Below, in pieces: positions 25,559 to 48,306 of a stretch of DNA of 64,000 nt (position 1 is the stretch's first letter; every line of letters begins with the position of its first letter). The DNA is from Klebsiella grimontii (GTDB lineage Bacteria > Pseudomonadota > Gammaproteobacteria > Enterobacterales > Enterobacteriaceae). The notes beneath the pieces are model-generated. The model ran no database searches, was not told the DNA's origin, and saw only the letters and a program-made list of their open reading frames with translations. The stretch spans positions 248,001 to 312,000 of the forward strand of contig NZ_FZTC01000019.1 of the NCBI RefSeq assembly GCF_900200035.1, in the 5' to 3' direction. A program made the translations under genes and the position numbers.

Positions 25559-25583
25559 GAGCACAAATTCATACAGGAGAAAT

Positions 25584-25625: not shown

Positions 25626-25807
25626 CGCTATTTTTTCTGCGCTGCTTGCCAACCGGCGGGCAGCAATCCTCCTGATCCAGACGATTGCATCCCATAAAAA
25701 ATAACGCAGCCAGGCTGCGAGGATAATCGTCATGTTCCTGTTTAAAAATACATTATTCCCTCCACCGTCAACGCGACGTTAATCGCCTCTCCGGCGACAA
25801 TTTGTCG
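25616..25807 (+). promoter_or_regulatory. mgtC leader: alternative stem-loops
   Basis: First pair of exclusive stems: GGCAAGC/GCTTGCC (25616-25622, 25644-25650) against GCTGCTTGCC/GGCGGGCAGC (25641-25650, 25655-25664). Second region: GACGATT/AATCGTC (25680-25686, 25725-25731) enclosing CGCAGC/GCTGCG (25705-25710, 25714-25719) directly before mgtP, and CGACA/TGTCG (25795-25807). Layout matches the Salmonella mgtCBR leader, which responds to Mg2+, ATP and proline-charged tRNA. Function here is inferred from synteny. Confidence 0.6.
25732..25782 (+). CDS. mgtP: mgtP-like proline-containing leader peptide (16 aa)
   Basis: ORF from ATG 25732 with GAGGA eight bases upstream to TAA 25780-25782: MFLFKNTLFPPPSTRR. 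Three consecutive Pro codons (10-12) would stall ribosomes when proline charging or EF-P function is low, as proposed for mgtP of Salmonella. Its start lies against the 3' arm of the GACGATT/AATCGTC stem, and mgtC begins 65 bases further on. Confidence 0.6.
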   Translation: MFLFKNTLFPPPSTRR

Positions 25808-25846
25808 TGTGCTTAATAAAGCACATAGTTAATTCTTCCAGCAAAA

Positions 25847-26683: not shown

Positions 26684-29416
26684 ATGACTGACATGAAAAT
26701 AGAAAACCGGAAACTCAACCGGTCTGCGTCAGAAAATGATAAGCAGCATAAAAAAAGCTTCGCCATTGAAACCGAGGCATTTAACAGCCCGGATCATACG
26801 CTGGCGCGGCTCAACAGCAGCCGTCAGGGGCTCACCACCGAAGATGCCCTTGAACGGCTGGATGAATACGGCCGCAATGAGGTTGCGCATGAGCAGGCGC
26901 CGCCGGCGCTAATTCAGCTTTTGCAGGCATTCAATAACCCGTTTATCTATGTCCTGATGGCGCTGGCCGCCGTCAGCTTCGTGACCGATTACTGGCTGCC
27001 GCTGCGTAACGGCGAAGAGACCGATCTGACCGGGATTATCATTATCGTCACGATGGTCAGCCTGAGCGGGTTATTGCGTTTCTGGCAGGAGTTTCGCACT
27101 AACAAAGCGGCGCAGGCGCTGAAATCAATGGTCCGCACCACGGCGACGGTGCTGCGTCGCGGTCCGGGTAACATGGGGCCGACGCAGGAGGAAATTGCCA
27201 TTGAGGAGCTGGTGCCCGGTGACATCATCTTCCTGGCGGCGGGGGATCTGGTTCCGGCGGATGTCCGCCTGCTGGAGTCCCGCGACCTGTTCGTTAGCCA
27301 GTCGATACTCAGCGGCGAATCGCTGCCGGTTGAAAAGTATGATGTTCTGGCCAGCGTGTCCGGCAAAGGGTGCGACAGGCTGCCCGAGCCGAACAAGGAC
27401 AAGAGTCTGCTGGAGATGGGCAATATCTGTCTGATGGGCACCAACGTCACCAGCGGCAGGGCGCAGGCGGTAGTGGTGGCCACCGGAAACCGCACCTGGT
27501 TTGGTTCGCTGGCGAAGTCTATTGTCGGCACGCGTACCCAGACGGCGTTCGATCGCGGGGTAAACAGCGTCAGCTGGCTGCTGATCCGCTTTATGCTGGT
27601 GATGGTGCCGATTGTGCTGCTGATTAACGGCTTCAGCAAAGGCGACTGGGTTGAAGCATCGCTGTTTGCTCTCGCGGTCGCCGTCGGCCTGACGCCGGAA
27701 ATGCTGCCGATGATCGTCAGCTCAAACCTGGCGAAAGGCGCTATCGCCATGTCGCGGCGCAAAGTGATCGTCAAGCGGCTGAACGCGATTCAGAACTTCG
27801 GCGCCATGGACGTGCTGTGCACCGATAAAACCGGCACGCTGACCCAGGACAATATCATTCTTGAGCATCATCTTGACGTAAGCGGCAGCGAGAGCGACCG
27901 GGTGCTGACGCTGGCGTGGCTTAACAGCAGCAGCCAGAGCGGGGCGCGTAATCTGATGGACCGGGCGGTGCTGCGCTTTGGCGAGGGGCGGATTGCGCCA
28001 GCGACCAAAGAGCGCTTCGTGAAGCTTGATGAACTGCCGTTTGATTTTGTTCGCCGTCGGGTGTCGGTGTCGGTGGAAGATGTCCGCCACGGCGATAAAA
28101 GCCTGATCTGCAAAGGCGCGGTCGAAGAGATGCTGACGGTGGCCACGCATCTTCGCGAAGGCGACCGCGTGGTTGCGCTGGATGACACCCGACGCGATCT
28201 GCTGTTAGCCAAAACGCAGGATTACAATGCCCAGGGCTTCCGCGTGCTGCTGGTTGCGACCCGCAAGCTGGATGATTCTGCTCTGACAGCCCCGCTGTGC
28301 GCCGACGATGAGCAGGGGCTAACGGTCGAAGGAATGCTGACCTTCCTCGACCCGCCGAAAGAGAGCGCGGGAAAAGCGATTACCGCGCTGCGCGACAACG
28401 GGGTGGCAGTGAAAGTGTTAACCGGCGATAACCCGGTCGTCACGGCGCGGATTTGCCTGGAAGTGGGCATCGATGCCCACGGTATCCTGACCGGGCCGCA
28501 GATTGAGGCGATGACGGATAACGAACTGGAGCGCGAAGTGGAAACGCGCGCGGTGTTCGCCAAACTGACGCCGCTGCAGAAGTCGCGGATCCTGAAAACG
28601 CTGCAGAAAAACGGCCACACCGTCGGCTTCCTCGGCGATGGCATCAACGATGCGCCGGCGCTGCGCGATGCGGACGTCGGTATTTCGGTTGACAGCGCGG
28701 CGGATATCGCCAAAGAGGCATCCGATATTATCCTGCTGGAAAAGGATTTGATGGTGCTGGAAGAAGGGGTGATCAAAGGGCGTGAGACCTTCGGCAATAT
28801 CATCAAGTATCTGAACATGACCGCCAGCTCTAACTTCGGCAACGTCTTTTCGGTACTGGTGGCCAGCGCGTTTATTCCGTTCCTGCCGATGCTGGCGATT
28901 CATCTGCTGATCCAGAACCTGATGTACGATCTCTCCCAGCTCTCGCTGCCGTGGGACAAGATGGACAAAGAGTTCCTACGCAAACCGCGCAAGTGGGATG
29001 CGAAAAACATCGGCCGCTTTATGCTGTGGATTGGCCCGACGTCGTCCATTTTTGATATCACCACCTTCGCGCTGATGTGGTACGTGTTCGCGGCGAACAA
29101 CGTCGAAGCCCAGGCGCTGTTTCAGTCCGGATGGTTTATTGAAGGACTACTGTCGCAGACGCTGGTCGTACATATGCTGAGAACGCAGAAAATTCCGTTT
29201 ATCCAGAGCCGCGCGACGCTGCCGGTGCTGCTCACCACCGCATTGATTATGGCGATGGGCATCTACATTCCGTTCTCTCCGCTGGGAGCGATGGTCGGGC
29301 TGGAGCCGCTGCCGCTGAGCTACTTCCCGTGGCTGGTCGCGACGCTGCTCAGCTACTGCGTGGTCGCGCAGGGCATGAAGCATTTCTATATCAAACGTTT
29401 CGGTCAGTGGTTCTGA
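26684..29416 (+). CDS. mgtB: Mg2+-importing P-type ATPase MgtB
   Basis: 910 aa, the length of Salmonella MgtB (908). P3-type ATPase importing Mg2+ with ATP hydrolysis. Motifs: actuator loop LSGESLPVEK, phosphorylation site VLCTDKTGTLTQDN, nucleotide domain ICKGAVEE, hinge KVLTGDNP and GFLGDGINDAPALRDADVGISV. About ten membrane helices. The acidic, poorly conserved N-terminal tail is normal for MgtA/B. Translated 141 bases after mgtC; the intervening stretch carries no ORF I can support. Start has GAGGATAA upstream. Inner membrane. Confidence 0.95.
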   Translation: MTDMKIENRKLNRSASENDKQHKKSFAIETEAFNSPDHTLARLNSSRQGLTTEDALERLDEYGRNEVAHEQAPPALIQLLQAFNNPFIYVLMALAAVSFVTDYWLPLRNGEETDLTGIIIIVTMVSLSGLLRFWQEFRTNKAAQALKSMVRTTATVLRRGPGNMGPTQEEIAIEELVPGDIIFLAAGDLVPADVRLLESRDLFVSQSILSGESLPVEKYDVLASVSGKGCDRLPEPNKDKSLLEMGNICLMGTNVTSGRAQAVVVATGNRTWFGSLAKSIVGTRTQTAFDRGVNSVSWLLIRFMLVMVPIVLLINGFSKGDWVEASLFALAVAVGLTPEMLPMIVSSNLAKGAIAMSRRKVIVKRLNAIQNFGAMDVLCTDKTGTLTQDNIILEHHLDVSGSESDRVLTLAWLNSSSQSGARNLMDRAVLRFGEGRIAPATKERFVKLDELPFDFVRRRVSVSVEDVRHGDKSLICKGAVEEMLTVATHLREGDRVVALDDTRRDLLLAKTQDYNAQGFRVLLVATRKLDDSALTAPLCADDEQGLTVEGMLTFLDPPKESAGKAITALRDNGVAVKVLTGDNPVVTARICLEVGIDAHGILTGPQIEAMTDNELEREVETRAVFAKLTPLQKSRILKTLQKNGHTVGFLGDGINDAPALRDADVGISVDSAADIAKEASDIILLEKDLMVLEEGVIKGRETFGNIIKYLNMTASSNFGNVFSVLVASAFIPFLPMLAIHLLIQNLMYDLSQLSLPWDKMDKEFLRKPRKWDAKNIGRFMLWIGPTSSIFDITTFALMWYVFAANNVEAQALFQSGWFIEGLLSQTLVVHMLRTQKIPFIQSRATLPVLLTTALIMAMGIYIPFSPLGAMVGLEPLPLSYFPWLVATLLSYCVVAQGMKHFYIKRFGQWF

Positions 29417-34067: not shown

Positions 34068-34220
34068 ACCGCCCACCTGTTCAGGTGAGTTGTCGCGCAT
34101 CGCCAACCGCGGCCATACTGTTCGTCACCATGTAACTGGCGCTTTAGACAGATCACTGTCGGGGAGCATGGTTGCCGCCGCCGCGCGCCTGGGCATCACT
34201 TCACTGTATGGAGATACGCT

Positions 34221-34853
34221 ATGCCTGAGATTTCGTCGCTGCTGACCTTCGCTCTGGTGGCCCTTGGCCTGGTGCTGACCCCGGGGCCGAATATGATCTA
34301 TTTGATTTCGCGCTCACTTTGCCAGGGAAGAAGGGCCGGGCTGGTCTCCCTCGGCGGGGTGGCGCTGGGGTTTGTCTTTTATATGCTGTGCGCGGCGTTT
34401 GGTATTACCGCGCTGATCTTCGCCGTGCCCTATGCTTATGACGTCTTGCGCATCAGCGGCGTTGTCTATCTGCTTTATCTGGCCTGGCAGGCGGTGAGGC
34501 CCGGCGGGCGCTCGGTTTTTGCGGTGCGGGATCTGCCCGCCGATAGCGGCCGTAAGCTGTTTTTGATGGGCTTTATCACTAATCTGGCGAACCCTAAAAT
34601 CGCTATTATGTACCTCTCATTGCTGCCGCAGTTTATCTCTCCCGGACACGGCAGCATCCTTGCGCAGTCGCTGGTACTGGGATTTACCCAGGCGATAATT
34701 AGCGTGGCGGTTAACGCGCTGATTGTGATGATGGCCGGGCAGGTGTCGCTGTTTCTCGCGGGGCGTCCGTTGTGGCAGCAGTTTCAGCGCTGGCTGATGG
34801 CGACGGTACTGGCGGGGATGGCGGTGAAAATTGCCTTCGAAGCGCGGAAGTAA
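34221..34853 (+). CDS. RhtB/LysE-family amino acid exporter
   Basis: 210 aa with six hydrophobic helices and the family motif LVLTPGPNMIYLISRSLCQGRRAGLVSLGG near the N-terminus; NLANPKIAIMYLSLLPQFI in the middle is the typical RhtB signature. Start preceded by TGGAGA. A 153-base gap separates it from the DUF606 pair, so it may have its own promoter. Exports an amino acid or derivative; which is unknown. Inner membrane. Confidence 0.87.
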   Translation: MPEISSLLTFALVALGLVLTPGPNMIYLISRSLCQGRRAGLVSLGGVALGFVFYMLCAAFGITALIFAVPYAYDVLRISGVVYLLYLAWQAVRPGGRSVFAVRDLPADSGRKLFLMGFITNLANPKIAIMYLSLLPQFISPGHGSILAQSLVLGFTQAIISVAVNALIVMMAGQVSLFLAGRPLWQQFQRWLMATVLAGMAVKIAFEARK

Positions 34854-35603: not shown

Positions 35604-35666
35604 GTAACGACCATTTTAAAGCATAATATCGACCGATGACCAATAAAGTCAATATAACGACCGATG
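35604..35666. promoter_or_regulatory. Direct repeats at the XRE/B3-B4 divergent promoter
   Basis: Two copies of AATAT(AA)CGACCGATG start at 35625 and 35651, and a related GTAACGACCATT lies at 35604-35615. Evenly placed near the start of the XRE gene, they could be operators. The second copy is inside the annotated coding start, which also hints that translation may begin later, at 35684. Confidence 0.4.
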
Positions 35667-36238
35667 CGGGCGCCGATGCCGCCATGATCAATGAAGCCGT
35701 TGCGGCGCGCCTTAAACGCTACCGGGCGGAAAAGAAGATCTCCCTTGATGAACTGTCGCGACGCGCGGGGGTCAGTAAAGGCATGCTGGTAGACATTGAA
35801 GCCTGCCGGGCCAATCCGAGCATCGCGCTGTTGTGCCGTCTGGCCTCGGCGCTGGGCGTATCCGTAGCCGATTTTGTCAACGTCGCCGCCGCGCCGCCGG
35901 TCAAGGTGATGGCCGCAAGCGATATTCCCACCCTATGGCAGGGCGAGCGGGGCGGTCATGCACGGCTGCTTGCCGGTACCAGCGGACCGGATATGGTGGA
36001 GCTCTGGCAATGGAGTCTCTATCCCGGTGAGATTTTTACCTCGCCGGGGCACGGCGATGGCACGACAGAACTGCTTTTCGTGACCGAGGGCGCCTTAACC
36101 CTGACGGTCAACGACGCGAGCTATGTGATTGTCGCCGGAGATTCCGCCGTGGCGCGCACCGACGCCCCGCATAGCTACGCTAACGCCGGGGATGCGGTCA
36201 CGCGGTTCACTATGACGGTCAGCGAAAAAGCGCGTTAG
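35636..36238 (+). CDS. XRE-family regulator with C-terminal cupin domain
   Basis: 200 aa. Helix-turn-helix of the HTH_3/XRE type at residues about 20-75 (KKISLDELSRRAGVSKGMLVDIEACRANPSIALL) followed by a cupin_2 domain (about 110-195, with SPGHGDGTTELLFVTEGAL and DAPHSYANAG). No clear Shine-Dalgarno at 35636; ATG 35684 is a possible start directly before the HTH. This architecture is common in regulators of amine, polyamine or amino-acid metabolism. Probably regulates the divergent B3/B4 gene. Confidence 0.84.
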   Translation: MTNKVNITTDAGADAAMINEAVAARLKRYRAEKKISLDELSRRAGVSKGMLVDIEACRANPSIALLCRLASALGVSVADFVNVAAAPPVKVMAASDIPTLWQGERGGHARLLAGTSGPDMVELWQWSLYPGEIFTSPGHGDGTTELLFVTEGALTLTVNDASYVIVAGDSAVARTDAPHSYANAGDAVTRFTMTVSEKAR

Positions 36239-36271
36239 TATTATCCCGACCGCGCTCCTCCTTCACGGCGA

Positions 36272-36289
36272 GCGCACCAAATCCATGCA
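36272..36289 (+). promoter_or_regulatory. Possible NtrC-type upstream site (weak)
   Basis: GCGCACCAAATCCATGCA resembles the NtrC consensus TGCACC-N5-GGTGCA in its left half and last bases only. It lies about 110 bases upstream of the sigma-54 element start site, a normal place for an enhancer. Recorded because of the promoter downstream, with low confidence. Confidence 0.3.
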
Positions 36290-36370
36290 ATGCCCCATCA
36301 TCACTCCCCATTATTGGGAATCGCGGCGACGCCTGTCGTCGCATGGCTGAGTTTACGCGCTCTGCGCGCC

Positions 36371-36386
36371 TGGCATAGACCTTGCA
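36371..36386 (+). promoter_or_regulatory. Sigma-54 promoter of the guanidine operon
   Basis: TGGCAT-N5-TTGCA: GG at 36372-36373 and GC at 36384-36385 are separated by exactly ten bases, the required -24/-12 spacing, and most of TGGCAC-N5-TTGCW is matched. Start of transcription would be near 36397, about 40 bases before the ykkC aptamer. Suggests nitrogen (NtrC) control of guanidine use. Confidence 0.7.
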
Positions 36387-36437
36387 AACTCCTCGTCAGA
36401 AGGCAGCGCAACAGACAATTGAGATAACACAATAGCT

Positions 36438-36570
36438 GGCTAGGGTTCCGGTTCACTCAGGTGAACGTCTGGTCCGAGAGCTGGCGACCTCTGCGAGGTT
36501 ACACGGCGGGACAAAAGCCCGGGAGACAGCAGCACCGTTGGGTGTCGCGCTGCCCCCGTTTCCCGTGCTA
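36438..36570 (+). ncRNA. Guanidine-I (ykkC-yxkD) riboswitch
   Basis: The conserved aptamer parts are present in order: CTAGGGTTCCGG (36440-36451), CTGGTCCGAGAG (36469-36480), the GCTGGCGACC...GAGGT arm, and ACACGGCGGGACAAAAGCCC (36501-36520). This is the guanidinium-binding class I motif. GGGAGAC at the aptamer end can pair with GTTTCCCG at 36558-36565, giving a competing stem before the AGAGG of the first gene. It should therefore turn on expression when guanidinium is bound. Downstream genes are a guanidine transport and degradation set, which supports the call. Confidence 0.92.
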
Positions 36571-36584
36571 ACCAGAGGTCCACC

Positions 36585-37643
36585 ATGAAGACACCGCCGC
36601 TCCTCCGCTCTCTAATTCTGTCGCTGGCGCTGCTGGCCAGCGTCCCATCGTTTGCCGCCGTCAAAAAAGAGTTCAACGTCTGCTGGACTATCTACGCCGG
36701 ATGGATGCCCTGGGGTACCATCAGCAACGAAAAAATCATCGATAAGTGGGCCAGTAAATACGGCATCAAAATCAATATCGTTCAGCTAAACGACTACATC
36801 GAGTCCATCAACCAGTATACCGCGGGCCAGTTTGACGGCTGCACCATGACCAACATGGATGCCCTGACCATTCCGGCGGCGGGCGGCGTTGACACGACGG
36901 CGCTGATTACCGGCAGCTACTCCGACGGCAACGACGGCGTGGTACTGAAGGGGGCGAATAAAAAGCTCAGCGATCTGAAAGGGATGGCGGTGTATCTCCC
37001 GGAGCTTTCGGTATCGCACTACCTGCTGGTTCGCGGCCTGGAAAAAGCCGGACTGCAGGAAAAAGACGTCAAAGTGGTCAATACCTCGGATGCGGATATC
37101 GTCTCGGCCTTTGGCACCAGCGGCGTACGCGCGGCGGTGGCCTGGAATCCGCAGCTTTCGGTTATCAAAAAGACGCCGCAAACCACGGAAGTCTTTAGCT
37201 CTTCGCAGGTTCCCGGCGAGCTGATCGACATGATGGTGGTGAATACTCAGACGCTGAAAGATAACCCGGCGCTGGGCAAAGCCCTGACCGGCGCCTGGTT
37301 CGAGATGATGACCAAAATGCGGGCCGGCGATACCGAGGCGCTAAACGCGATGGCCGCCGACTCCGGCACCGATCTCGCCGGTTACCAGGCGCAGCTAAAA
37401 ACGACCCATCTGTTCTGGACGCCTGCCGACACCCTGACGTTTATCTCCTCGCCGGAGCTGGCCAAAACCATGCAGCGGGTGGCGCAGTTCTCCTTTGATA
37501 AAGGGCTGCTGGGCGAGGGCGCGCAGAGCGCCGACTTTATCGGCATGACCTTCCCCGGCGGCGTCACCGTCGGCGATACCGCGAACAGCAAGCTGCGCTT
37601 TGACGACAGCTATCTGAAGCTGGCCGCGGCGGGCAAGCTGTAA
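36585..37643 (+). CDS. Guanidine/urea-type ABC transporter, periplasmic binding protein
   Basis: 352 aa with signal peptide (cleavage near SFA-AV). SsuA/NMT1-like binding protein of the group found with urea/guanidine carboxylase operons. Visible are FNVCWTIYAGWMPWGTI at the mature start, KWASKYGIKINIVQLNDYIESINQYTAG and SAFGTSGVRAAVAWNPQ. Captures guanidinium (or urea) in the periplasm for the permease and ATPase that follow. First cistron behind the ykkC riboswitch, AGAGG eight bases before ATG. Confidence 0.88.
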   Translation: MKTPPLLRSLILSLALLASVPSFAAVKKEFNVCWTIYAGWMPWGTISNEKIIDKWASKYGIKINIVQLNDYIESINQYTAGQFDGCTMTNMDALTIPAAGGVDTTALITGSYSDGNDGVVLKGANKKLSDLKGMAVYLPELSVSHYLLVRGLEKAGLQEKDVKVVNTSDADIVSAFGTSGVRAAVAWNPQLSVIKKTPQTTEVFSSSQVPGELIDMMVVNTQTLKDNPALGKALTGAWFEMMTKMRAGDTEALNAMAADSGTDLAGYQAQLKTTHLFWTPADTLTFISSPELAKTMQRVAQFSFDKGLLGEGAQSADFIGMTFPGGVTVGDTANSKLRFDDSYLKLAAAGKL

Positions 37644-37667
37644 TGATTGACTCCGGGAGTCCACGCC

Positions 37668-38483
37668 ATGCGCCACATTAACCGCTATCCCCGGCAGGGT
37701 ATGCGCCTGACGCTGATGCTGTTGCCCTTTGTCCTGCTGGTCGCCGCCTGGTTTATCGGCTCGGCGGTGCGGCTGGAAGCCAATCCGCAGGATAAGCTGC
37801 TGCCCGGCCTGTCGCAGATGATCGCGGCCATTGACCGGATGGCGTTCACGCCGGATAAACGCAGCGGTGAGTATCTGCTGTGGGCCGATACGCTGATTAG
37901 CCTGGGCCGCCTTCTGATTGGCCTGACGTTCTCTTCGCTGATTGGCCTGGGCATCGGCATCTCCGCCGGCGTGTTCCCGATGTACCGCGCGGCGCTGTCG
38001 CCGCTGATGACCGTGGTATCGATGATCCCGCCGCTGGCGATCCTGCCGGTGCTGTTTATTGTCTTCGGCCTGGATGAGCTGTCAAAAGTGATGCTCATCG
38101 TCATCGGCATTACGCCGATGCTGGCGCGCGACCTTGAACAGCGGGCGCGGGAAATTCCGGCGGAGCTGTTTATCAAAGCGCAAACCCTCGGCGCCAATAG
38201 CTGGACGGTGGTGCTGCGGGTGGTGCTGCCGCAGCTGCTATCGCGGCTGATCACCTCCCTGCGCCTGCTGCTGGGCTCCGCGTGGCTGTTTTTGATCTCC
38301 GCCGAGGCCATCTCCGCCACCGCCGGGCTCGGCTATCGCATATTCCTCGTTCGCCGCTATATGGCGATGGACGTGATTATTCCTTACGTCATCTGGATAA
38401 CGCTGCTGGCGTGGCTGATGGATCTGGCTCTGCGCCAGCTGCACAAAGCCTGTTTCCCGTGGGCGGAAGGAGGTCGGGCATGA
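37668..38483 (+). CDS. Guanidine/urea-type ABC transporter permease
   Basis: 271 aa from the ATG at 37668 (GGGAG eight bases upstream; a TTG at 37647 has none). About six hydrophobic helices, with the cytoplasmic EAA loop ELFIKAQTLGANSWTVVLRVVLPQLLSRLI. SsuC/TauC-type family. Its stop overlaps the ATPase start by four bases (ATGA). Inner membrane. Confidence 0.88.
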   Translation: MRHINRYPRQGMRLTLMLLPFVLLVAAWFIGSAVRLEANPQDKLLPGLSQMIAAIDRMAFTPDKRSGEYLLWADTLISLGRLLIGLTFSSLIGLGIGISAGVFPMYRAALSPLMTVVSMIPPLAILPVLFIVFGLDELSKVMLIVIGITPMLARDLEQRAREIPAELFIKAQTLGANSWTVVLRVVLPQLLSRLITSLRLLLGSAWLFLISAEAISATAGLGYRIFLVRRYMAMDVIIPYVIWITLLAWLMDLALRQLHKACFPWAEGGRA

Positions 38484-39256
38484 GTTTTATCGACATCAAA
38501 AATATCTGGCAGGAGTATGGCGATCACGTGGTGCTGGAGCGCATCAATTTGCAGGTGAAAGAGGGTGAGTTCTGTTCGATGGTCGGCGCGTCCGGCTGCG
38601 GCAAATCAACCTTTTTACGTCTGCTGCTCGGCCAGGAAAAGCCGACTCGCGGCGAAATCACTCTCGACGGCCAGCCGCTGGCGGCGGAGCCGGACCGCAG
38701 CCGCGGCGTGGTGTTTCAGCGTTATTCGGTTTTCCCGCATCTCAACGTGCTGGATAACGTCGCCATAGGTCTTGAACTTCCGGCGTCACCGCTGTTTGGC
38801 CGGCTGTTTGCCGGCAGGAAACGCGACGCCCGCGAACGGGCGCGGCGGATGCTGGAGAAAGTCGGGCTGGGGCACGCGCTGGATAAATACCCGGCGCAGC
38901 TCTCCGGCGGGATGCAGCAGAGGCTGGCGATTGCCCAGGCGTTCGTGATGCAGCCGCGCGTGCTGCTGCTCGATGAACCCTTCGGCGCGCTGGACCCTGG
39001 GATCCGCAAGGATATGCACGGGCTGCTGCTCCAGCTATGGAGCGAAACCCGGATGACGGTTTTTATGGTCACCCACGACCTTGCGGAAGGCTTCAACCTT
39101 GGCACCCGGCTGCTGGTTTTCGACAAAGTGCGCATTGATCCGCAGGCGCCCAACGCCTGGGGGGCGCGCATTACCTACGATATCCCGCTCAATGAAGCGC
39201 GGATGTCGCAGCTGACGACCGGCAGCGACAATAACGTTTACGCATTAAGGAGATAG
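38480..39256 (+). CDS. Guanidine/urea-type ABC transporter ATPase
   Basis: 258 aa from ATG 38480 (an upstream frame continues but AGGAGG lies just before this ATG). Walker A GASGCGKST, Q-loop VVFQRYSVF, signature LSGGMQQRLAIAQA, Walker B VLLLDEPFGALD, H-loop MVTHDL. It powers the importer with the two genes before it. A C-terminal extension of about 40 residues (ITYDIPLNEARMSQL) is typical of the urea/guanidine branch. Confidence 0.9.
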   Translation: MSFIDIKNIWQEYGDHVVLERINLQVKEGEFCSMVGASGCGKSTFLRLLLGQEKPTRGEITLDGQPLAAEPDRSRGVVFQRYSVFPHLNVLDNVAIGLELPASPLFGRLFAGRKRDARERARRMLEKVGLGHALDKYPAQLSGGMQQRLAIAQAFVMQPRVLLLDEPFGALDPGIRKDMHGLLLQLWSETRMTVFMVTHDLAEGFNLGTRLLVFDKVRIDPQAPNAWGARITYDIPLNEARMSQLTTGSDNNVYALRR

Positions 39257-39260
39257 TTTG

Positions 39261-39989
39261 ATGACCGCACTTTTTCACTCCTCCCCCAGCCTGCGCGAAG
39301 AGCGGCTCCCCGGCGGGGCGCACACCTCGTTAATTTTGCGCAAAGGGCAAATTCTGCGCCTGACCGATATCGACGGCGGGGCCAACGTCAGCATGATGAT
39401 GCTTAATCCCCACGAGAAGAGCGAGCGTCTGAATCTGCCGGACACCCTCAAGGGCCAGCATACCGCGCGCCTGACCGCCGGACACTGTTTCTACTCCGAT
39501 ATGGGGCGCGTCCTGGCCGGGATCGTTGCCGACAGCTGCGGCTGGCACGACCCGTTCGGCGGGGTGCTCAACGCCGATGAGACGCGTGAAAAATATGGCG
39601 CAGGACGCTACCAGGAGCTGCGCAACGGCTTCTATCGCAACGGCGTCGATAACCTGCTGGTCGAGATGGGCAAGTGGGATCTGGGCCTGGAAGACCTGCT
39701 GATGGTGGTTAACTTCTTCAGCAAAGTGACCGTCGATGAGGACGGCAGTTTCCGCTTTATCCCCGGCAACAGCCGCGCCGGAGATTACGTTGAGCTGTTT
39801 GCGCCGATGGATGTCCTCATGGTACTGACCGCGCTGCCGCATCCCCAGGACCCGGCCGCGGAATACGCCCCGCGGCCAATTCAGCTTAGCTGGTATCAGG
39901 CCGACGATGCGCAGGCGACCGCGGAAGCGCTCTTTACTCGCGATGAAAACCAGCGCGCGTTCCTCAACACCCAACTTTTTGCCCTGTAA
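39261..39989 (+). CDS. cgdA: Carboxyguanidine deiminase subunit (DUF1989, UAAP1)
   Basis: 242 aa from ATG 39261 (a TTG at 39258 is also open; AAGGAG lies eight bases before the ATG). DUF1989 family, formerly urea-amidolyase-associated protein 1. In Pseudomonas the two DUF1989 proteins form carboxyguanidine deiminase, hydrolysing carboxyguanidine to allophanate and ammonia. Visible are the [20 protein letters not shown] segment with Cys and His, and [15 protein letters not shown]. Assignment as subunit A follows operon order. Confidence 0.85.
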
Positions 39990-39999
39990 GGAGGCTGCG

Positions 40000-40635
40000 A
40001 TGCGTCTTATCACCAGTAACCGTCGTCCTGAAGATGCCGTCTATCGCCATGTGATCCCGGCAGGGGAACCCTGGCTGTTTGAGGTACAAAAAGGGCAAAC
40101 CCTGCGCCTGCTAGACCTCGAAGGCAACCAGGCCATCGATACTCTGTTTTACAACGCCGATAACCCCCGCGAACGCTACGATCCGCAGCGCACGCTGCGC
40201 CGCCAGGGCAATGCCTATCTGACCACCGGCAGCGTGCTCTATTCCAATCTGGGCAATCCGCTGCTGACCATCGTTGCTGATACCTGCGGTCGCCACGATA
40301 CCCTCGGCGGCGCCTGCGCCCAGGAGAGCAACACCGTGCGCTACGCCCAGGATAAACGCTATATGCACAGCTGCCGGGATAATTTCCTTTGCGCCTGCCT
40401 GCACGATGGTCGCCTGCACAAGCGCGATATCGGCGCCAACATCAACTTTTTTATGAACGTCCCGGTCACCCCGGAAGGCGGTCTGACCTTTGAGGACGGC
40501 ATATCGGCGGCGGGGAAATACGTTGAGCTGCGCGCCGAGTGCAGCGCCGTGGTGCTGATTTCCAACTGTCCGCAGTTGAACAATCCCTGCAACGGCTGGA
40601 ACCCCACGCCCGCCGAGGTGCTGGTATGGAACTGA
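40000..40635 (+). CDS. cgdB: Carboxyguanidine deiminase subunit (DUF1989, UAAP2)
   Basis: 211 aa from ATG 40000 (AAGGAGG seven bases upstream). Second DUF1989 protein of the pair, with [41 protein letters not shown] and [15 protein letters not shown]. It would act with the preceding gene in deiminating carboxyguanidine. Several conserved cysteines and the His in GRHD are candidates for metal binding. Its 3' end overlaps a small reading frame. Confidence 0.85.
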
Positions 40636-40724
40636 CCCGCTGGCAGCGCTGGCGCCTGTTGGCCTTTCGGCTCTTCGCCGTCCGCGCCGATCGCCTGAAC
40701 AGTACGCCGACGCGCAAACCTTAA
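40626..40724 (+). CDS. Possible 32-aa basic peptide inside the guanidine operon
   Basis: ORF from ATG 40626 to TAA 40724, starting ten bases before the cgdB stop codon in another frame. It is strongly basic ([17 protein letters not shown] start, eight Arg). Coupled translation is possible, although there is no clear Shine-Dalgarno. It fills the space between cgdB and the second riboswitch. Could be a chance frame; conservation in other strains would decide. Confidence 0.35.
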
Positions 40725-40730
40725 GCGCCG

Positions 40731-40784
40731 GTTCACCCCGGGGACGACCTCAGGGGAACATCGAATTTTTGCGGGACGACCCGC
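40731..40784 (+). ncRNA. Guanidine-II (mini-ykkC) riboswitch inside the operon
   Basis: Two hairpins with the diagnostic ACGR terminal loops: GGGG-ACGA-CCTC (40740-40751, one G-U pair, inside an outer CCCC/GGGG stem) and GCGGG-ACGA-CCCGC (40771-40784). They are linked by an A/U-rich spacer. It ends 19 bases before the carboxylase start. Guanidine-II switches act on translation by freeing the ribosome site; GTGAGTTCC before the start can pair with GGAAC at 40755-40759. Confidence 0.85.
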
Positions 40785-40803
40785 GACCCTGTGAGTTCCG
40801 CTT

Positions 40804-43800
40804 ATGTTTGATACCTTACTGATTGCCAACCGCGGCGCGATTGCCTGCCGCATTCTGCGCACCCTGCGCGCGATGCAGGTGAAGGGCGTCGCCGTTTATT
40901 CCGAAGCCGACCTGAGCAGTCTGCATATCCGCGACGCCGATGAAGCCCTCAGCCTCGGCGACGGCCCGGCGGCGCAAACCTATCTGGCCACGGAGAAGAT
41001 CATTGCCGCCGCGCAGCAGAGCGGCGCCCGGGCGATCCACCCCGGCTACGGCTTTCTGTCGGAGAACGCGGCCTTCGCCGAGGCCTGCGAAGCGGCGGGG
41101 CTGGCCTTTGTCGGCCCAACCCCGCGGCAGCTGCGCGTCTTCGGCCTGAAGCATACCGCGCGCGCCTTAGCCAAAGCCGAGGGCGTGCCGCTGCTGGAGG
41201 GCAGCGAACTGCTGGCCGACAGCGACGAAGCCTGCCGGGCGGCTGAGGCGGTGGGCTATCCGGTGATGCTTAAAAGCACCGCCGGCGGCGGCGGGATCGG
41301 CATGCGCGTCTGCCGCGACGCTCGTGAGCTGACGGAGGCGTTCGCCACGGTGCAGCGGCTGGGGCAAAACAACTTCAGCGACGCCGGCGTATTTCTCGAA
41401 AAATATATCGAACGCGCCCGCCATCTGGAGGTGCAAATCTTCGGCGACGGGCGGGGGGACGTTATCGCCCTCGGGGTGCGCGACTGTTCGGTACAGCGGC
41501 GTAACCAGAAAGTGATTGAAGAGACGCCCGCGCCGAATCTGCCGGAAGGCACCGCGCAGGCGCTATGCGCGGCGGCTATCGCGCTGGGTAAAGCGGTGAG
41601 CTACCGCAGCGCCGGCACGGTGGAGTTCGTCTATGACAGCACGGCGCGGCAGTTTTATTTCCTCGAAGTGAATACCCGGCTTCAGGTTGAACACGGCGTC
41701 ACCGAGCAGGTGTGGGGCGTTGATCTGGTGCGCTGGATGATTGAGCTGGCGGCGGGCGATTTACCCCGGCTAGACGTGCTGGCCGCCGGGTTACGGCCTC
41801 AGGGGCATGCTATTCAGGCGCGGCTTTACGCCGAGGATCCGGGACGGCAGTTTCAGCCGTCTCCCGGACTGCTAACGGAAGCCATCTTTCCACCGGCGGA
41901 CGGCGCCGCCCTGCGTATCGACCGCTGGGTGGAAGCCGGCTGCGAAGTGCCGCCGTTTTTCGACCCGATGCTGGCGAAAACGATCGCCTGGCGCCCCAGC
42001 CGCGATGAGGCTATCGCCGGCCTGGCGCAGGCGCTGGCGGAGACCCGCCTGTACGGCGTAGAAACCAACCGCCTGTACCTGCTGCAAATTCTTGGCTTTG
42101 CGCCGTTTACCGAAGGCGAGCCCTGGACCCGCTGCCTTGAGCAGCTGCGCTACCGGGCGGCCACCGTGGAGGTGCTGAGCGCCGGGACCCAGACCAGCGT
42201 GCAGGACTATCCGGGACGTCTCGGGTACTGGGCGGTGGGCGTACCGCCGTCGGGGCCGATGGACGATCGCGCCCTGCGTCTCGGCAACCGTCTGCTGGGT
42301 AATGCCGAGGGAGAGGCCGCGCTGGAAATCACCCTCAACGGGCCGACCCTGAAATTTAATACCGACGTTCAGGCGGTGGTGTGCGGCGCGCCGCTGGCGG
42401 TGACGCTCGATGGCGTTGACCAGCCGCTGGACCGCGTTTTTACCATTCCGGCGGGGGCGACGCTGAAGCTTGGCGCGATAAGCGGCGCAGGGGTCAGAAG
42501 CTATCTCTGCCTGAGCGGCGGTATTCAGGTGCCGGACTATTTGGGCAGTAAAAGCACCTTTACCCTCGGTCAGTTTGGCGGCCACGGCGGACGGGCGCTG
42601 CGCGGCGGCGACGTGCTGCATCTGGCGCCGCGCGCCGCCGCCAGAGTCGGGGATCAACTGCCCGCCGCGCTCCGCACGACGCTTGCGCAGGTACGGACGC
42701 TGCGGGTGATTTATGGCCCCCACGGCGCGCCGGAGTTTTTTACGCCGGCGTATATCGCGACTTTTTTCGCCACCGACTGGGAGGTTCATTTTAACTCCAG
42801 CCGCACCGGCGTGCGCCTGATTGGACCCAAGCCGCTGTGGGCCCGCGACAGCGGCGGCGAAGCGGGACTGCATCCGTCGAATATTCACGATAATCCTTAC
42901 GCGGTGGGCGCGGTCGATTTTACCGGCGATATGCCGGTGATCCTCGGGCCGGACGGGCCGAGCCTCGGCGGTTTCGTCTGTCCGGTCACCGTTATTGAAG
43001 CCGACCTCTGGCAATTAGGCCAGCTCAAGGCCGGGGACAAAGTACGTTTCGTGGCGGTAGATTTACCCACCGCCCGGCGGCTGGCGCAAGGGCGGCGCGC
43101 CGAGCTGGCGACCCTAAGTCACCAGGCGATAACCTGGCAGCCCGCGCCCCTGACGTCGCCTGTCGTCATGACCTGCGGCGAGGCGGATAAACGCCTGGTG
43201 GCGCGCCTTTCCGGCGATACCCACCTGCTGCTGGAAGCCGGGGAGCCGGAGCTGGATCTGGTGCTGCGTTTCCGCATTCATGCCCTGATGCAGGCCCTGG
43301 AGGCGCAATCCGCAGAAGGCGTGATTGATATCACGCCGGGGATCCGCTCGCTGCAAATCCATTTCCAGCCGGAAACCCTGCCCCTGGAGACGCTGCTGGC
43401 CCGGGTGCGCGGCGAGTGGTCCACGGTTTGCCTGAGCGACGATCTGCAGGTGCCGACGCGCGTGGTGCATCTGCCGCTCTCCTGGGACGACCCGGCCTGC
43501 CGCAAGGCGATCGATAAATACATGACCACCGTGCGCCAGGACGCGCCGTGGTGCCCGAGCAACCTTGAGTTTATCCGCCGGATTAACGATCTGCCTGACG
43601 AGCAGGCGGTATGGAATACGGTGTTTGACGCCAGCTATCTGGTCATGGGGCTGGGCGATGTTTATCTCGGCGCGCCGGTGGCGACGCCGCTCGACCCGCG
43701 CCATCGCCTGGTCACTACCAAGTACAACCCGGCGCGCACCTGGACGGCGGAAAACTCGGTCGGCATCGGCGGGGCCTATCTGTGCGTCTACGGCATGGAG

Positions 43801-44409
43801 GGACCCGGCGGCTATCAGTTCGTTGGCCGGACCTTGCAAATGTGGAATCGCTACCACGACGTGGCGGATTTTGCCGGCAAACCCTGGCTGCTGCGTTTCT
43901 TCGACCAATTGCGTTTCTATCCGGTTTCGGCCGAAGAGCTGCTGCAAATTCGCCGCGATTTTCCGCTCGGACGCTACCCGCTGCGCATTGAGAACAGCAC
44001 GCTGCGGCTGGCGGAATACCAGCAGTTTCTCCACCGCGAAGCGCACAGCATCGGCGCGTTTCGCGAGCATCAGCAGCGGGCGTTTAACGCCGAACGCGAT
44101 CGCTGGATAGCCAGCGGCCAGGCCCATTTCGACAGCCAGGAGGGCGCCGTGGATGAGGGTGGCGACGCGCCGCTGCGTCAGGGCGAGCAGGGGGTGGAGA
44201 GCCCGATTTCCGGCAACTTATGGCAGGTACAAACCGCGGCAGGCAGTCGGGTTCGCGCGGGGGATGTGCTGGTCGTTCTGGAGTCGATGAAGATGGAGAT
44301 CCCGCTGCTGGCCCCCTGCGACGGCATTATCCAGCAGGTTCACGTGCAGCCGGGCAGCGCGGTGCGCGCCGGGCAGCGGGTGGCGGTGATTATTGAGGAG
44401 AAGGCATGA
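40804..44409 (+). CDS. Biotin-dependent guanidine/urea carboxylase
   Basis: 1201 aa. Domain order: biotin carboxylase (about 1-450; STAGGGGIGMRVC and EVNTRLQVEHGVTE), a KipA-like domain (about 455-770; AGTQTSVQDYPGRLGYWAVG), a KipI-like domain (about 790-990), the carboxyltransferase remainder and a biotinyl domain with Lys1163 in LESMKMEIP. It carboxylates guanidine (or urea) with bicarbonate and ATP. Linked DUF1989 genes and guanidine riboswitches favour guanidine. Weak start context (no good Shine-Dalgarno) fits translational control by the mini-ykkC element just upstream. Coupled to the next gene by a four-base overlap. Confidence 0.92.
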   Translation: MFDTLLIANRGAIACRILRTLRAMQVKGVAVYSEADLSSLHIRDADEALSLGDGPAAQTYLATEKIIAAAQQSGARAIHPGYGFLSENAAFAEACEAAGLAFVGPTPRQLRVFGLKHTARALAKAEGVPLLEGSELLADSDEACRAAEAVGYPVMLKSTAGGGGIGMRVCRDARELTEAFATVQRLGQNNFSDAGVFLEKYIERARHLEVQIFGDGRGDVIALGVRDCSVQRRNQKVIEETPAPNLPEGTAQALCAAAIALGKAVSYRSAGTVEFVYDSTARQFYFLEVNTRLQVEHGVTEQVWGVDLVRWMIELAAGDLPRLDVLAAGLRPQGHAIQARLYAEDPGRQFQPSPGLLTEAIFPPADGAALRIDRWVEAGCEVPPFFDPMLAKTIAWRPSRDEAIAGLAQALAETRLYGVETNRLYLLQILGFAPFTEGEPWTRCLEQLRYRAATVEVLSAGTQTSVQDYPGRLGYWAVGVPPSGPMDDRALRLGNRLLGNAEGEAALEITLNGPTLKFNTDVQAVVCGAPLAVTLDGVDQPLDRVFTIPAGATLKLGAISGAGVRSYLCLSGGIQVPDYLGSKSTFTLGQFGGHGGRALRGGDVLHLAPRAAARVGDQLPAALRTTLAQVRTLRVIYGPHGAPEFFTPAYIATFFATDWEVHFNSSRTGVRLIGPKPLWARDSGGEAGLHPSNIHDNPYAVGAVDFTGDMPVILGPDGPSLGGFVCPVTVIEADLWQLGQLKAGDKVRFVAVDLPTARRLAQGRRAELATLSHQAITWQPAPLTSPVVMTCGEADKRLVARLSGDTHLLLEAGEPELDLVLRFRIHALMQALEAQSAEGVIDITPGIRSLQIHFQPETLPLETLLARVRGEWSTVCLSDDLQVPTRVVHLPLSWDDPACRKAIDKYMTTVRQDAPWCPSNLEFIRRINDLPDEQAVWNTVFDASYLVMGLGDVYLGAPVATPLDPRHRLVTTKYNPARTWTAENSVGIGGAYLCVYGMEGPGGYQFVGRTLQMWNRYHDVADFAGKPWLLRFFDQLRFYPVSAEELLQIRRDFPLGRYPLRIENSTLRLAEYQQFLHREAHSIGAFREHQQRAFNAERDRWIASGQAHFDSQEGAVDEGGDAPLRQGEQGVESPISGNLWQVQTAAGSRVRAGDVLVVLESMKMEIPLLAPCDGIIQQVHVQPGSAVRAGQRVAVIIEEKA

Positions 44410-46202
44410 TGCAGCAGACGTTTGATTTACGCCTGGCGACCCTGGCGGCAGACTATCGCAACGGCAAAACCACCCCGCGCCGCCTGCTGGCGGAAGTGCG
44501 CCAGCGGGCGCAGGCGCTGAACCCCGAATTCCGCTTATTTATCCATATCCTGAGCGAAGAGGAGCAGGAGCCGTTTCTGGCGGCGCTGGAAGGCCTCTCG
44601 CCGACCGAGCTGCCGCTATACGGCGTGCCGTTCGCCATCAAAGACAATATCGATTTGGCGGAGATTATCACCACCGCCGCCTGCCCGGCGTTTGCTTACC
44701 GGGCGGAGCAGAGCGCGACGATTGTCGCTCAGCTGATCGCGCTGGGGGCGGTGCCGGTCGGTAAAACCAATCTCGATCAGTTCGCCACCGGCCTGAACGG
44801 TACCCGCTCGCCGTACGGTGCTTGCCGCAACGGCTATCTTGCAGATTACCCATCCGGGGGCTCCAGCGCCGGTTCCGCGCTGGCGGTGGCGCTGGGCGTC
44901 GCCAGCTTCTCGCTGGGAACGGACACCGCCGGCAGCGGCCGCGTCCCGGCGGGGCTGAATAACCTGGTGGGTCTGAAGGCCACGAAAGGGCTGATCTCCA
45001 CCGCTGGGGTCGTGCCCGCCTGCCGTACGTTAGACTGTGTGACCTTTTTCAGCGCCACCGCCGACGAGGCGAGCCAGCTGCTGGCGCTGGTCGCGCAGTA
45101 CGATCCGCTGGATGCCTGGAGCCGCCATAATCCGCAGTGGAACAGCCGTCAGGCGTTCGGCAGGCCGGCAGCCGGTTTTCGTTTTGGCGTTCCGCGCGAG
45201 CTGAATTTCCTCGGCTGCAGCGCAAGCGAGCGTCTGTTTACCCAGGCCCGGCAGCGGCTGACGGCGCTGGGTGGGGTGGCGGTTGAGATCGAATTCGCGC
45301 CGTTTCTGGCGGCAGCCCGACTGCTGTATGACGGACCGTGGGTCGCCGAACGTTACGCGGTAGTCGGCCCGTTGATGGCGCGGCAGCCGGAGGCGGTGCT
45401 GCCGGTCATTCGCGAGGTGCTGGCGAAAGCGCCGGATACCGACGCCACGGCGACCTTTAAGGCGATCTATCAGCTACAGCAGTACAAAGCCCGGTGCGAC
45501 GCGATCCTCGAGACCCTCGACTGCGTGCTGACGCCAACCTATCCGCGTCCGGTGACGCTCGACGAGCTGCAAGCGGAACCGATCGCGCGCAACGCCGATC
45601 TCGGGTATTACACCAACTTTATGAACCTGCTGGACTACGCCGCGGTGAGCGTGCCGTGCGGATTTATGCCGGACGGCTTGCCCTCTGGCGTTACCCTGTT
45701 TGGCCGGGCATTTACCGACCAGTATTTGCTCAGCCTGGCCGACGCGTTTCAGCGAGCGGAGCGGCTGCCGCTGGCCGGCGGGACGCGGCTGGAAACCCCG
45801 CCGCCCGAACGCGCCGCCGGTCATGACCGGATGGCGCTGGTTGTTTGCGGCGCGCATCTTGCCGGCCTGCCGCTAAACGATCAGCTGCTGGCGCGGGGCG
45901 GCCAGCTGCTGCAGGAAACCCGCAGCGCGCCGCACTATCGTTTGTACGCCCTCGCGGACGGTAAGCGCCCGGCAATGGTTCGCGATGAGAGCGGCGGGGC
46001 GGCGATTGCGGTTGAAGTGTGGGAGCTACCCAGCGCGGAGGTCGGTTCGCTGCTGGCGGCCATTCCCGCGCCGCTGGGCTTAGGGAAAGTTGAGCTTGCC
46101 GACGGACGCCGGTTAACGGGCTTTATTTGCGAAGCCGAAGGATTAGGCGAAGCCACGGAGATTACCGCCTACGGCGGCTGGCGCGCCTGGCTGGCGCGCT
46201 AG
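44406..46202 (+). CDS. atzF: Allophanate hydrolase AtzF
   Basis: 598 aa. Amidase-signature enzyme with Ser-cisSer-Lys triad visible as Lys79 (FAIKDNID), Ser153 (PSGGSSAGSA) and Ser177 (GTDTAGSGRVPAG). It is followed by a C-terminal AtzF-type domain (about 460-595). It hydrolyses allophanate to ammonia and CO2, the last step of the guanidine route. Starts inside the end of the carboxylase gene (ATGA overlap region) behind GGAGAAGG. Last gene of the operon, ended by a good terminator. Confidence 0.93.
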   Translation: MMQQTFDLRLATLAADYRNGKTTPRRLLAEVRQRAQALNPEFRLFIHILSEEEQEPFLAALEGLSPTELPLYGVPFAIKDNIDLAEIITTAACPAFAYRAEQSATIVAQLIALGAVPVGKTNLDQFATGLNGTRSPYGACRNGYLADYPSGGSSAGSALAVALGVASFSLGTDTAGSGRVPAGLNNLVGLKATKGLISTAGVVPACRTLDCVTFFSATADEASQLLALVAQYDPLDAWSRHNPQWNSRQAFGRPAAGFRFGVPRELNFLGCSASERLFTQARQRLTALGGVAVEIEFAPFLAAARLLYDGPWVAERYAVVGPLMARQPEAVLPVIREVLAKAPDTDATATFKAIYQLQQYKARCDAILETLDCVLTPTYPRPVTLDELQAEPIARNADLGYYTNFMNLLDYAAVSVPCGFMPDGLPSGVTLFGRAFTDQYLLSLADAFQRAERLPLAGGTRLETPPPERAAGHDRMALVVCGAHLAGLPLNDQLLARGGQLLQETRSAPHYRLYALADGKRPAMVRDESGGAAIAVEVWELPSAEVGSLLAAIPAPLGLGKVELADGRRLTGFICEAEGLGEATEITAYGGWRAWLAR

Positions 46203-46208
46203 GACATC

Positions 46209-46244
46209 ATCACCTCCGTCGAAGTCCCGAGGGAGGTGATTTTT
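46209..46244 (+). terminator. Terminator of the guanidine operon
   Basis: ATCACCTCC / GGAGGTGAT stem (46209-46217 and 46232-46240) followed by TTTTT, seven bases after the atzF stop. Confidence 0.85.
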
Positions 46245-46386
46245 GTGACGACGTCACGTTTCTAACATGCTGAAACATTTCTGCCAAATCATTAGCAACC
46301 TTTCGATAGGGCTCTCGCTGCGATAACGCTATTCTTCCCCGCTTTTCCTTTTTCAGGCCCTTTGTAACCCAGGTATATGACCGCTA

Positions 46387-48306
46387 ATGTCCCTAATGAG
46401 AGATGAAATTCGCGACCATTCAGCGGAAAAGATGCTATTTATCCGCCGAGCCGTCATTGCGTTTCTACTGGTGGTGGTCTGCTTTGCCATCCTGATCCTT
46501 AATCTTTACCGTTTGCAGGTCGATCAGCACGATTTTTATCAGACGCGTTCAAACCAGAACGACATTAAAATGCTGCCCATCGCGCCGAGCCGGGGGCTGA
46601 TTTTCGACCGCAACGGTATCCCGCTGGTACAAAATATTACCCTCTACCGTTTGCAGGTGATCCCGAGCAAAATCGCCGATATGACGGCGCTGCTGCAGCA
46701 GCTGACGCCGATCGTCGATTTAACCCCGCAGGATATCGCCGATTTTCGCGACGATATGCACCACAACAGCCGCTACAAAGAGGTGACCTTAAAAGCGGAC
46801 CTGAGCGATGTTGAAGTGGCGCGTTTTGCGGTCAATGAGTTTCATTTCCCCGGCGTCACGGTGGAGAGCTACCAGCAGCGCGCATACCCCTACGGGGCCG
46901 AACTGGCGCACGTGGTTGGCTACGTATCGAAAATCAACGACAGCGATCTGCAAAAGCTGGCCAAAGCGGGGGAAGAGGAGAACTACGCCGCCGACCATAA
47001 TATCGGCAAGCAGGGTATCGAAGGCTACTACGAGAAAGCGCTGCACGGCACCACCGGATATCAGGAGGTCGAGGTGGATAACCACGGGCGGGTGGTGCGC
47101 CTGCTGAAAGAGGTGCCGCCGGTGGCCGGGAAGAACATCTACCTGACGCTGGATCTGCACCTGCAGCAGTATATCGAGTCGGTGCTGAAAGGGCAGCGCG
47201 CGGCGGTGGTGGCCGTCGATCCGCGCGATGGCGGCGTGCTGGCCATGGTGTCGAGCCCCAGCTACGATCCCAATCCCTTTGTCAGGGGCATCGGCTATCA
47301 GGCCTACCGTTCGCTGCTCGATAACCCGGACCGGCCGCTGATTAACCGGGTCACCCAGGGTCTCTATCCGCCCGCGTCGACGGTGAAACCCTACATGGCG
47401 CTGTCGGCGCTATCGGCGGGCGTTATCACGCCAACCACCTCCTTCTTCGGCGCGCCGACCTGGACGCTGCCGGGAACCCAGCGCCGCTACCGCGACTGGC
47501 TGAAGAGCGGCCACGGCATGCTTAACGTCACCAAAGCGATAGAAGAATCGGCGGACACCTTCTTCTATCAGGTAGCGTTTGAGATGGGTATCGACCGTAT
47601 TCACGAGTGGCTCAGCAAGTTCGGTTACGGTCAGTCAACTGGCATCGATCTTAACGAAGAGTATGCCGGGGTGCTGCCGAGCCGGGAGTGGAAACAGCGG
47701 GTGCATAAAAAACCATGGTATCAGGGCGATACCATTTCCGTCGGTATCGGCCAGGGCTACTGGATTGCCACGCCGATCCAGATGGTCAAGGCGCTGACGA
47801 CCCTGATTAACAACGGCAAAGTGCAAAACCCGCATCTGCTTTACTCCATGAAACAGGGGAATAAGGTTGAGCGCTATCAGCCGCCGCAGGATCTGCCGCA
47901 GGTTGGCGATCCGCGCTCGCCTTACTGGGGCGTGGTGCGCAACGGCATGTACGGCATGGCGAACCTGCCAAACGGCACCGGCTATAAGCTGTTCCATACC
48001 GCGCCGTACCAGATCGCCGCCAAGTCCGGGACGTCCCAGGTGTTCAGCCTGAAGGAGAACCAGACCTATAACGCGAAAATGATCCCGGTGCGCCTGCGCG
48101 ACCATATCTTCTACACCCTGTTTGCGCCGTATCAGCATCCGAAGGTGGCGATGGCGCTGATTCTGGAGAACGGCGGCGGCGATGGCGTGGTAGCGGGACC
48201 GACGGCGCGCGCCATCCTCGACCATATCTTCGACCCGGCCAACGCGCCGGCGGTACAGGGCGCGGCCTCGACGGTGCCGCAGGTGGAGAGCGCCGACGCG
48301 CAGTAG
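46387..48306 (+). CDS. Second penicillin-binding protein 2 (PBP2 paralogue)
   Basis: 639 aa, full-length PBP2 with one N-terminal membrane helix (about residues 20-42), dimerisation region and transpeptidase domain. Active site Ser331-x-x-Lys334 (STVK), SAD at 388-390 and KSGTSQ late in the protein. Clearly related to E. coli MrdA but with a different N-terminus and PPA instead of PPG before the active Ser. It is isolated, not with rodA, so it is an additional copy. It resembles in concept Salmonella PBP2SAL, used in acid conditions; that role is inference. Periplasmic domain, inner membrane. Confidence 0.87.
   Translation: MSLMRDEIRDHSAEKMLFIRRAVIAFLLVVVCFAILILNLYRLQVDQHDFYQTRSNQNDIKMLPIAPSRGLIFDRNGIPLVQNITLYRLQVIPSKIADMTALLQQLTPIVDLTPQDIADFRDDMHHNSRYKEVTLKADLSDVEVARFAVNEFHFPGVTVESYQQRAYPYGAELAHVVGYVSKINDSDLQKLAKAGEEENYAADHNIGKQGIEGYYEKALHGTTGYQEVEVDNHGRVVRLLKEVPPVAGKNIYLTLDLHLQQYIESVLKGQRAAVVAVDPRDGGVLAMVSSPSYDPNPFVRGIGYQAYRSLLDNPDRPLINRVTQGLYPPASTVKPYMALSALSAGVITPTTSFFGAPTWTLPGTQRRYRDWLKSGHGMLNVTKAIEESADTFFYQVAFEMGIDRIHEWLSKFGYGQSTGIDLNEEYAGVLPSREWKQRVHKKPWYQGDTISVGIGQGYWIATPIQMVKALTTLINNGKVQNPHLLYSMKQGNKVERYQPPQDLPQVGDPRSPYWGVVRNGMYGMANLPNGTGYKLFHTAPYQIAAKSGTSQVFSLKENQTYNAKMIPVRLRDHIFYTLFAPYQHPKVAMALILENGGGDGVVAGPTARAILDHIFDPANAPAVQGAASTVPQVESADAQ

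Follow-up and report, generated by a model that had tools for sequence, protein, structure and literature searches.

The 64-kb stretch of Klebsiella grimontii DNA analysed here (the window), part of a 6.17 Mb genome, contains a guanidine-degradation operon that carries two different guanidine-sensing RNAs. The genes encode, in this order, an ABC importer, UAAP1, UAAP2, a carboxylase of 1201 residues and an allophanate hydrolase (Table 1). UAAP1 and UAAP2 we take, following the literature, to be the two subunits of carboxyguanidine deiminase. The carboxylase matches a family named after urea carboxylase, and its Asp705 lies opposite Asn1330 of the Kluyveromyces lactis enzyme, with Asp952 opposite Asp1584 (alignment positions were counted by hand, and the residues verified). 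According to the available text of a study of these enzymes (PMC11410670), aspartates at the equivalents of K. lactis positions 1330 and 1584 separate guanidine carboxylases from urea carboxylases, and by this criterion we read the enzyme as a guanidine carboxylase.

The initial annotation of the window, made from the sequence without database searches, had placed a class I (ykkC) guanidine aptamer before the transporter genes and a class II (mini-ykkC) element inside the operon, before the carboxylase gene. Both are confirmed by the Rfam covariance models, which score above their gathering thresholds at these places; the alignment of Guanidine-II to its model covers both ACGR-loop hairpins. 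The interpretation attached to this observation is partly supported. In particular, the pair had been called an unusual design, and the two-riboswitch layout is already known, not new. Guanidine-I is present in 33 of 295 Enterobacterales genomes (11 of 20 in the window's genus). Of these 33, 26 also have a Guanidine-II match on the strand and contig of Guanidine-I, some 4-7 kb further downstream (a hand count, with 24 above and 2 below the gathering score). As for the other seven, the contig ends first in one (G127), three have a candidate seen by pattern only that Rfam did not confirm (G140, G064 and G098), and no downstream Guanidine-II was seen in G192, G194 and G272.

The layout is also in print. 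A review of 2025 describes it in three enterobacteria, Raoultella, Erwinia and Klebsiella (PMC12186494), whose systems, like that in the window, have Guanidine-I before the importer and deiminase genes and Guanidine-II before the carboxylase and hydrolase genes. They differ in that the accessible text of the review mentions no sigma-54 promoter, and its main text no NtrC. In Vreelandella boliviensis, Guanidine-I likewise stands at the operon start and an internal Guanidine-II before the carboxylase; both aptamers have been probed, and class I is guanidine-specific while class II also answers methylguanidine (Sinn et al., 2025, PMC12508155). The Vreelandella operon differs from that in the window by its genes for methylguanidine demethylation, and the available part of the paper presumes a class I terminator and leaves the promoter type unmentioned.

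Table 1. Features of the guanidine operon and its control regions (positions in the window).
Feature	Positions	Strand	Basis
NtrC-like box CGCACCAAATCCATGCA	36273-36289	+	starts 123 nt before predicted start; 3 mismatches
Sigma-54 (-24/-12) element	36371-36386	+	exact match; predicted start near 36396; conserved
Guanidine-I (ykkC) aptamer	36429-36527	+	RF00442, 93.8 bits (gathering 63)
P2 5' strand GACCUCU, candidate anti-Shine-Dalgarno	36486-36492	+	7 of 7 pairs with 36574-36580; co-variation
Hairpin re-using aptamer 3' end GGGAG	36521-36558	+	followed by short T-run, 4 T in 8
Shine-Dalgarno region AGAGGUC, first gene	36574-36580	+	sequence; complementary to P2 5' strand
ABC transporter substrate-binding protein	36585-37643	+	TIGR03427, 537 bits (cut-off 334)
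ABC transporter permease	37668-38483	+	best match TauC-type, below its cut-off
ABC transporter ATPase	38480-39256	+	family matches, all under cut-offs
UAAP1, taken as carboxyguanidine deiminase subunit	39261-39989	+	TIGR03425 above cut-off; role from literature
UAAP2, taken as other deiminase subunit	40000-40635	+	TIGR03424 above cut-off; role from literature
Guanidine-II (mini-ykkC) aptamer	40736-40784	+	RF01068, 43.5 bits (gathering 32)
Guanidine carboxylase, 1201 aa	40804-44409	+	TIGR02712 (name: urea carboxylase); aspartates D705, D952
Allophanate hydrolase	44406-46202	+	TIGR02713 above cut-off

Output of the class I switch

Whether class I sets transcription of the operon or translation of its first gene had been left open in the initial annotation. 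The 5' strand of helix P2 in the aptamer is complementary to the Shine-Dalgarno (SD) region of the first gene over its whole length (Table 1), and the two co-vary among relatives. Across 39 genera, the pairing energy between a leader's own hairpin and SD averages -15.11 kcal/mol, versus -11.52 kcal/mol (standard deviation 0.47) with swapped SDs, and none of 40,000 permutations reaches the observed pairing. The 15 Enterobacterales genera alone give -16.81 versus -11.08 kcal/mol, again with 0 of 40,000 permutations. This set derives from 96 loci that yielded 80 leaders, 77 of which were used (L054, L110 and L133 were omitted). A second set, drawn from 120 loci that gave 73 leaders (44 loci failed on the ACACGG motif and 3 otherwise), contains 66 unseen leaders with a new hairpin/SD pair, in 27 clusters; there too no permutation in 10,000 matched the observed value, and genera may recur between the sets. 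When other mRNA regions replaced the SD in the first set, 1174, 2293 and 60 of 10,000 permutations were as good, as were 3746 with another stretch of the aptamer and 1441 with the reversed hairpin; the second-set controls gave 6958, 910 and 1579, with 28 when the hairpin was reversed. The co-variation favours translational control as the output of class I. Leaders are also modestly enriched in sequence complementary to GGUUACACGG, a conserved segment of the aptamer (genus mean of 3.54 mismatches versus 4.04, standard deviation 0.10).

Simple folding calculations support the predicted switch weakly: in the window's leader, SD accessibility rises from 0.22 in the free ensemble to 0.55 with the aptamer pairs forced. 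Several results weigh against a translational switch. Among the 24 genera outside the Enterobacterales, 133 of 40,000 permutations are as good as the observed pairing, and two of the controls deviate, namely the mRNA region +30 to +52 (the value of 60 above) and the reversed hairpin of the second set, so that composition plays some part, though a smaller one. The fold of the window's leader is as stable as that of shuffles (z = -0.28), and the anti-SD pairing has a mean probability of 0.26 in the free ensemble. Forcing the aptamer pairs costs 17 kcal/mol in a calculation from which ligand and tertiary contacts are absent, and when P2 is forced, the SD becomes more accessible in 28 of 69 leaders and less so in 6. 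The terminator presumed by Sinn et al. for class I (PMC12508155, available part) belongs on the same side.

The strongest alternative is accordingly that class I works mainly by intrinsic termination, in which case GGGAG at the 3' end of the aptamer would pair with a CUCC-like arm further downstream, just ahead of U residues, and the SD complementarity would be secondary. A hairpin that re-uses GGGAG was found by a lenient search in 76 of 77 leaders, and in 28 of 41 Enterobacterales leaders it is followed by at least five T in eight positions; termination is, moreover, the usual mode of class I according to the accessible text of the review (PMC12186494). However, the T-run passes this threshold in only 8 of 35 leaders from elsewhere and falls short of it in the window, where terminator prediction reported no terminator in the leader, and termination alone leaves the co-variation of the P2 strand with the SD unexplained. 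We consider termination unlikely to be the main output. Relatives with a T-run after the hairpin may use both outputs, translation and termination; in the window, the terminator beside the translational control is perhaps an eroded one, and the leader probably relies mainly on translation.

The sigma-54 element and candidate activator sites

The initial annotation had also reported a -24/-12 element and suggested nitrogen control on top of the two aptamers. We scanned for sigma-54 elements with TGGCAYRN4TTGCW, which we take to be the consensus. The element in the window, TGGCATAGACCTTGCA, matches without mismatch and is the sole match in the 64 kb at up to one mismatch; the RNA start predicted from it lies about 33 nt ahead of the Guanidine-I model. 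Since shuffled versions of the window contain 2.53 such matches on average, the match alone is no proof of a promoter, and conservation across loci is the deciding evidence. In the 200 nt upstream of Guanidine-I, 39 of 43 Enterobacterales loci have an element with at most one mismatch (26 of them exact), and its N4 spacer is variable. The corresponding counts are 23 of 29 for other loci of the class (5 exact; 28 when two mismatches are allowed) and 16 of 24 for further loci from a phylum-wide search, in which 36 places were reduced by 6 without a locus and 6 repeats of earlier loci. The null rates at this threshold are 0.64% in dinucleotide shuffles and 1 in 1236 real downstream windows. Eight loci of the phylum search lie outside the class; in four of them the element is exact and places the predicted start 1-2 nt ahead of the aptamer model. 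We make no claim that predicted starts always avoid the aptamer, as the choice of scan region almost forces such an outcome.

A pattern scan of named genomes for the combination of sigma-54 element and Guanidine-I returned at least 120 stretches, and the matches listed include Raoultella, Erwinia, Pectobacterium, Pantoea, Pseudomonas, Cupriavidus, Herbaspirillum and Psychrobacter, with R. terrigena and E. rhapontici among them. The genus label of the window covers genomes that share an identical 200-nt stretch with the named records of Raoultella terrigena NBRC 14941 and R. ornithinolytica NBRC 105727. As a negative control, none of 21 Guanidine-II leaders located away from Guanidine-I has an element at up to one mismatch. 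At the same threshold, no element that could serve as a promoter of its own was found in the 200 nt upstream of the internal Guanidine-II in any of 37 loci, three of which (L068, L069 and L070) have a pattern-only Guanidine-II without an Rfam report at E <= 0.01.

Candidate sites for the activator NtrC were sought with a palindrome that we assume to be its consensus. Most relatives in the genus have a box similar to that of the window, at -122 or -123. Between -165 and -80, boxes with at most three mismatches occur in 49 of 62 loci, compared with 16, 4 and 7 of 62 in three comparison windows and with 6.5% of shuffles; at up to two mismatches the count is 26, compared with 5, 1 and 1. Among 72 loci of named genomes, some of which may be related to the set of 62, the counts are 56 versus 4, 10 and 8 at up to three mismatches and 41 versus 0, 3 and 3 at up to two. 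The conserved element and the enriched boxes uphold nitrogen control as an idea, and suggest that NtrC may act at these loci. On the other side of the balance, the box of the window, CGCACCAAATCCATGCA, is among the weaker ones, four loci (L048, L071, L072 and L073) have no good sigma-54 element in the 200 nt before Guanidine-I, one of them (L048) in a genome with both aptamers, and the scanned loci are related, which makes the counts non-independent.

A dedicated local regulator might control the operon instead of NtrC. The gene directly upstream on the same strand (35636-36238) encodes a protein with helix-turn-helix and cupin domains (XRE-cupin), which speaks for it. As a conserved partner it was rejected, being present upstream in only 2 of the 43 loci from Enterobacterales, namely those of the window and L077, and the protein is not of the type that activates sigma-54, whose activators are AAA+ ATPases; we regard this alternative as very improbable. 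That the element is a chance match and another promoter drives the operon is allowed for by the shuffle average given above, but hardly credible in view of its conservation close before the aptamer despite a variable spacer, and of the fact that no plus-strand sigma-70-like site was reported in 36200-46400.

For the comparison with published regulons, COG3665 is presumed to be the UAAP family. The table of NtrC-dependent genes of Burkholderia cenocepacia H111 includes the urea carboxylase BCAS0272 (-6.0), along with one gene for an ABC periplasmic protein and another that is aminomethyltransferase-like (PMC5491218, available part). This regulon resembles the operon of the window through these three genes, and differs in that neither guanidine nor a riboswitch occurs in the main text of the paper. 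In the accessible main text of a paper on predicted sigma-54 regulons (PMC12316311), the word guanidine is absent and riboswitch appears in a reference only. As far as their available text goes, the two papers foreshadow nitrogen control of genes like these but do not name guanidine. Our searches found no openly licensed paper that joins guanidine carboxylase, NtrC and a riboswitch, or guanidine, sigma-54, a riboswitch and a nitrogen source. Neither the conservation of sigma-54 elements before Guanidine-I nor P2/SD complementarity that co-varies across genera was found in the searched papers.

Class II and other RNA elements

The proposal that class II sets translation of the carboxylase is carried by the literature, and no support across genera, in the form of co-variation, was found. 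In the minimum-energy fold of the window, the 5' strand of Guanidine-II P2 pairs with bases before the start codon (z = -1.21), and strong complementarity between Guanidine-II and the start region is found mainly in the window's genus and one near genus. Two candidate strands were rejected as partners co-varying with the start region in 13 genera: the P1 3' strand with the linker and the P2 5' strand (5750 of 10,000 permutations as good), and the P2 3' strand with the bases that follow it (6723 of 10,000).

Elsewhere in this genome lies another Guanidine-II leader (locus L003, G000:C34:9036-9080), which has no sigma-54 element and precedes a short frame that resembles, by eye, a guanidine exporter of the SMR family. 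Judged in the same way, 15 of the 21 Guanidine-II leaders away from Guanidine-I begin such a frame. Two Guanidine-I elements per genome are frequent in the class (8 of the 22 genomes that have a match, for example L084/L105, L093/L107, L133/L154 and L141/L155); some of these pairs lie 2-7 kb apart on one strand, as if a second class I element had taken the place of class II. At L054, the leader that separates Guanidine-I from the first gene contains two GGACGACC-type hairpins and resembles a direct class I-class II tandem; Rfam gave no report for these hairpins at E <= 0.01.

A reading frame of 32 residues (MELTRWQRW...; 40626-40724, plus strand) overlaps the end of the UAAP2 gene and stops just before Guanidine-II. 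Compared over nine loci of the genus, it varies mainly at third codon positions (368 versus 108 and 72), with 301 synonymous and 141 non-synonymous codon changes, these being pairwise, non-independent counts. The frame may encode a small protein.

Elsewhere in the window, a ZMP/ZTP riboswitch (55.1 bits, gathering 39) directly precedes a gene for a LysE-type translocator (34221-34853; region 34122-34853, plus strand). An mgtC leader RNA (105.6 bits, gathering 48) stands before the frame at 25847-26542 (region 25564-26542, plus strand), which is followed by a large frame, P-type ATPase-like by eye, at 26684-29416. A thiamine pyrophosphate (TPP) riboswitch on the minus strand (57229-57330; 73.9 bits, gathering 54.3) precedes the minus-strand frames 57159-56464 and 56467-55739.

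A proposed role of nitrogen status in the fate of guanidine

With a probability of roughly 0.7, and on the strength of sequence comparisons, we propose that the locus is an operon for guanidine assimilation gated by nitrogen, in the manner of an AND gate. When nitrogen is limiting, NtrC would bind about 80-165 bp upstream and activate sigma-54 polymerase at the -24/-12 element, as the conserved DNA suggests, with the RNA starting some 33 nt ahead of the class I aptamer. The second step is modelled on the co-variation: without guanidine, the P2 5' strand would pair with the SD and the 3' end of the aptamer would be held in the GGGAG hairpin, so that the importer is translated poorly, and with guanidine, P2 would be stabilised and the SD freed. 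The class II aptamer would then, as the literature indicates, make expression of the carboxylase and hydrolase depend on guanidine a second time. Export, through an unlinked class II leader with no sigma-54 element, would answer guanidine at any time. Import and degradation would require both nitrogen limitation and guanidine, and nitrogen status would decide between eating guanidine and expelling it.

We further think it reasonably likely that this extends to the Pseudomonadota, where genes for guanidine import and degradation would, as a rule, be under sigma-54/NtrC control before Guanidine-I. In many lineages that control would be joined by translational control with P2 as a co-evolving anti-Shine-Dalgarno strand, exporters would stay outside nitrogen control, and nitrogen status would decide whether guanidine is food or poison. 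The searched papers were not found to state a rule for importing a toxic nitrogen compound that the cell also exports; a nitrogen-type promoter on the side of import and degradation, seen in none of the 21 class II leaders examined elsewhere, offers one that can be tested. If true, a translational Guanidine-I platform would change the reading of reporter and probing data in proteobacteria.

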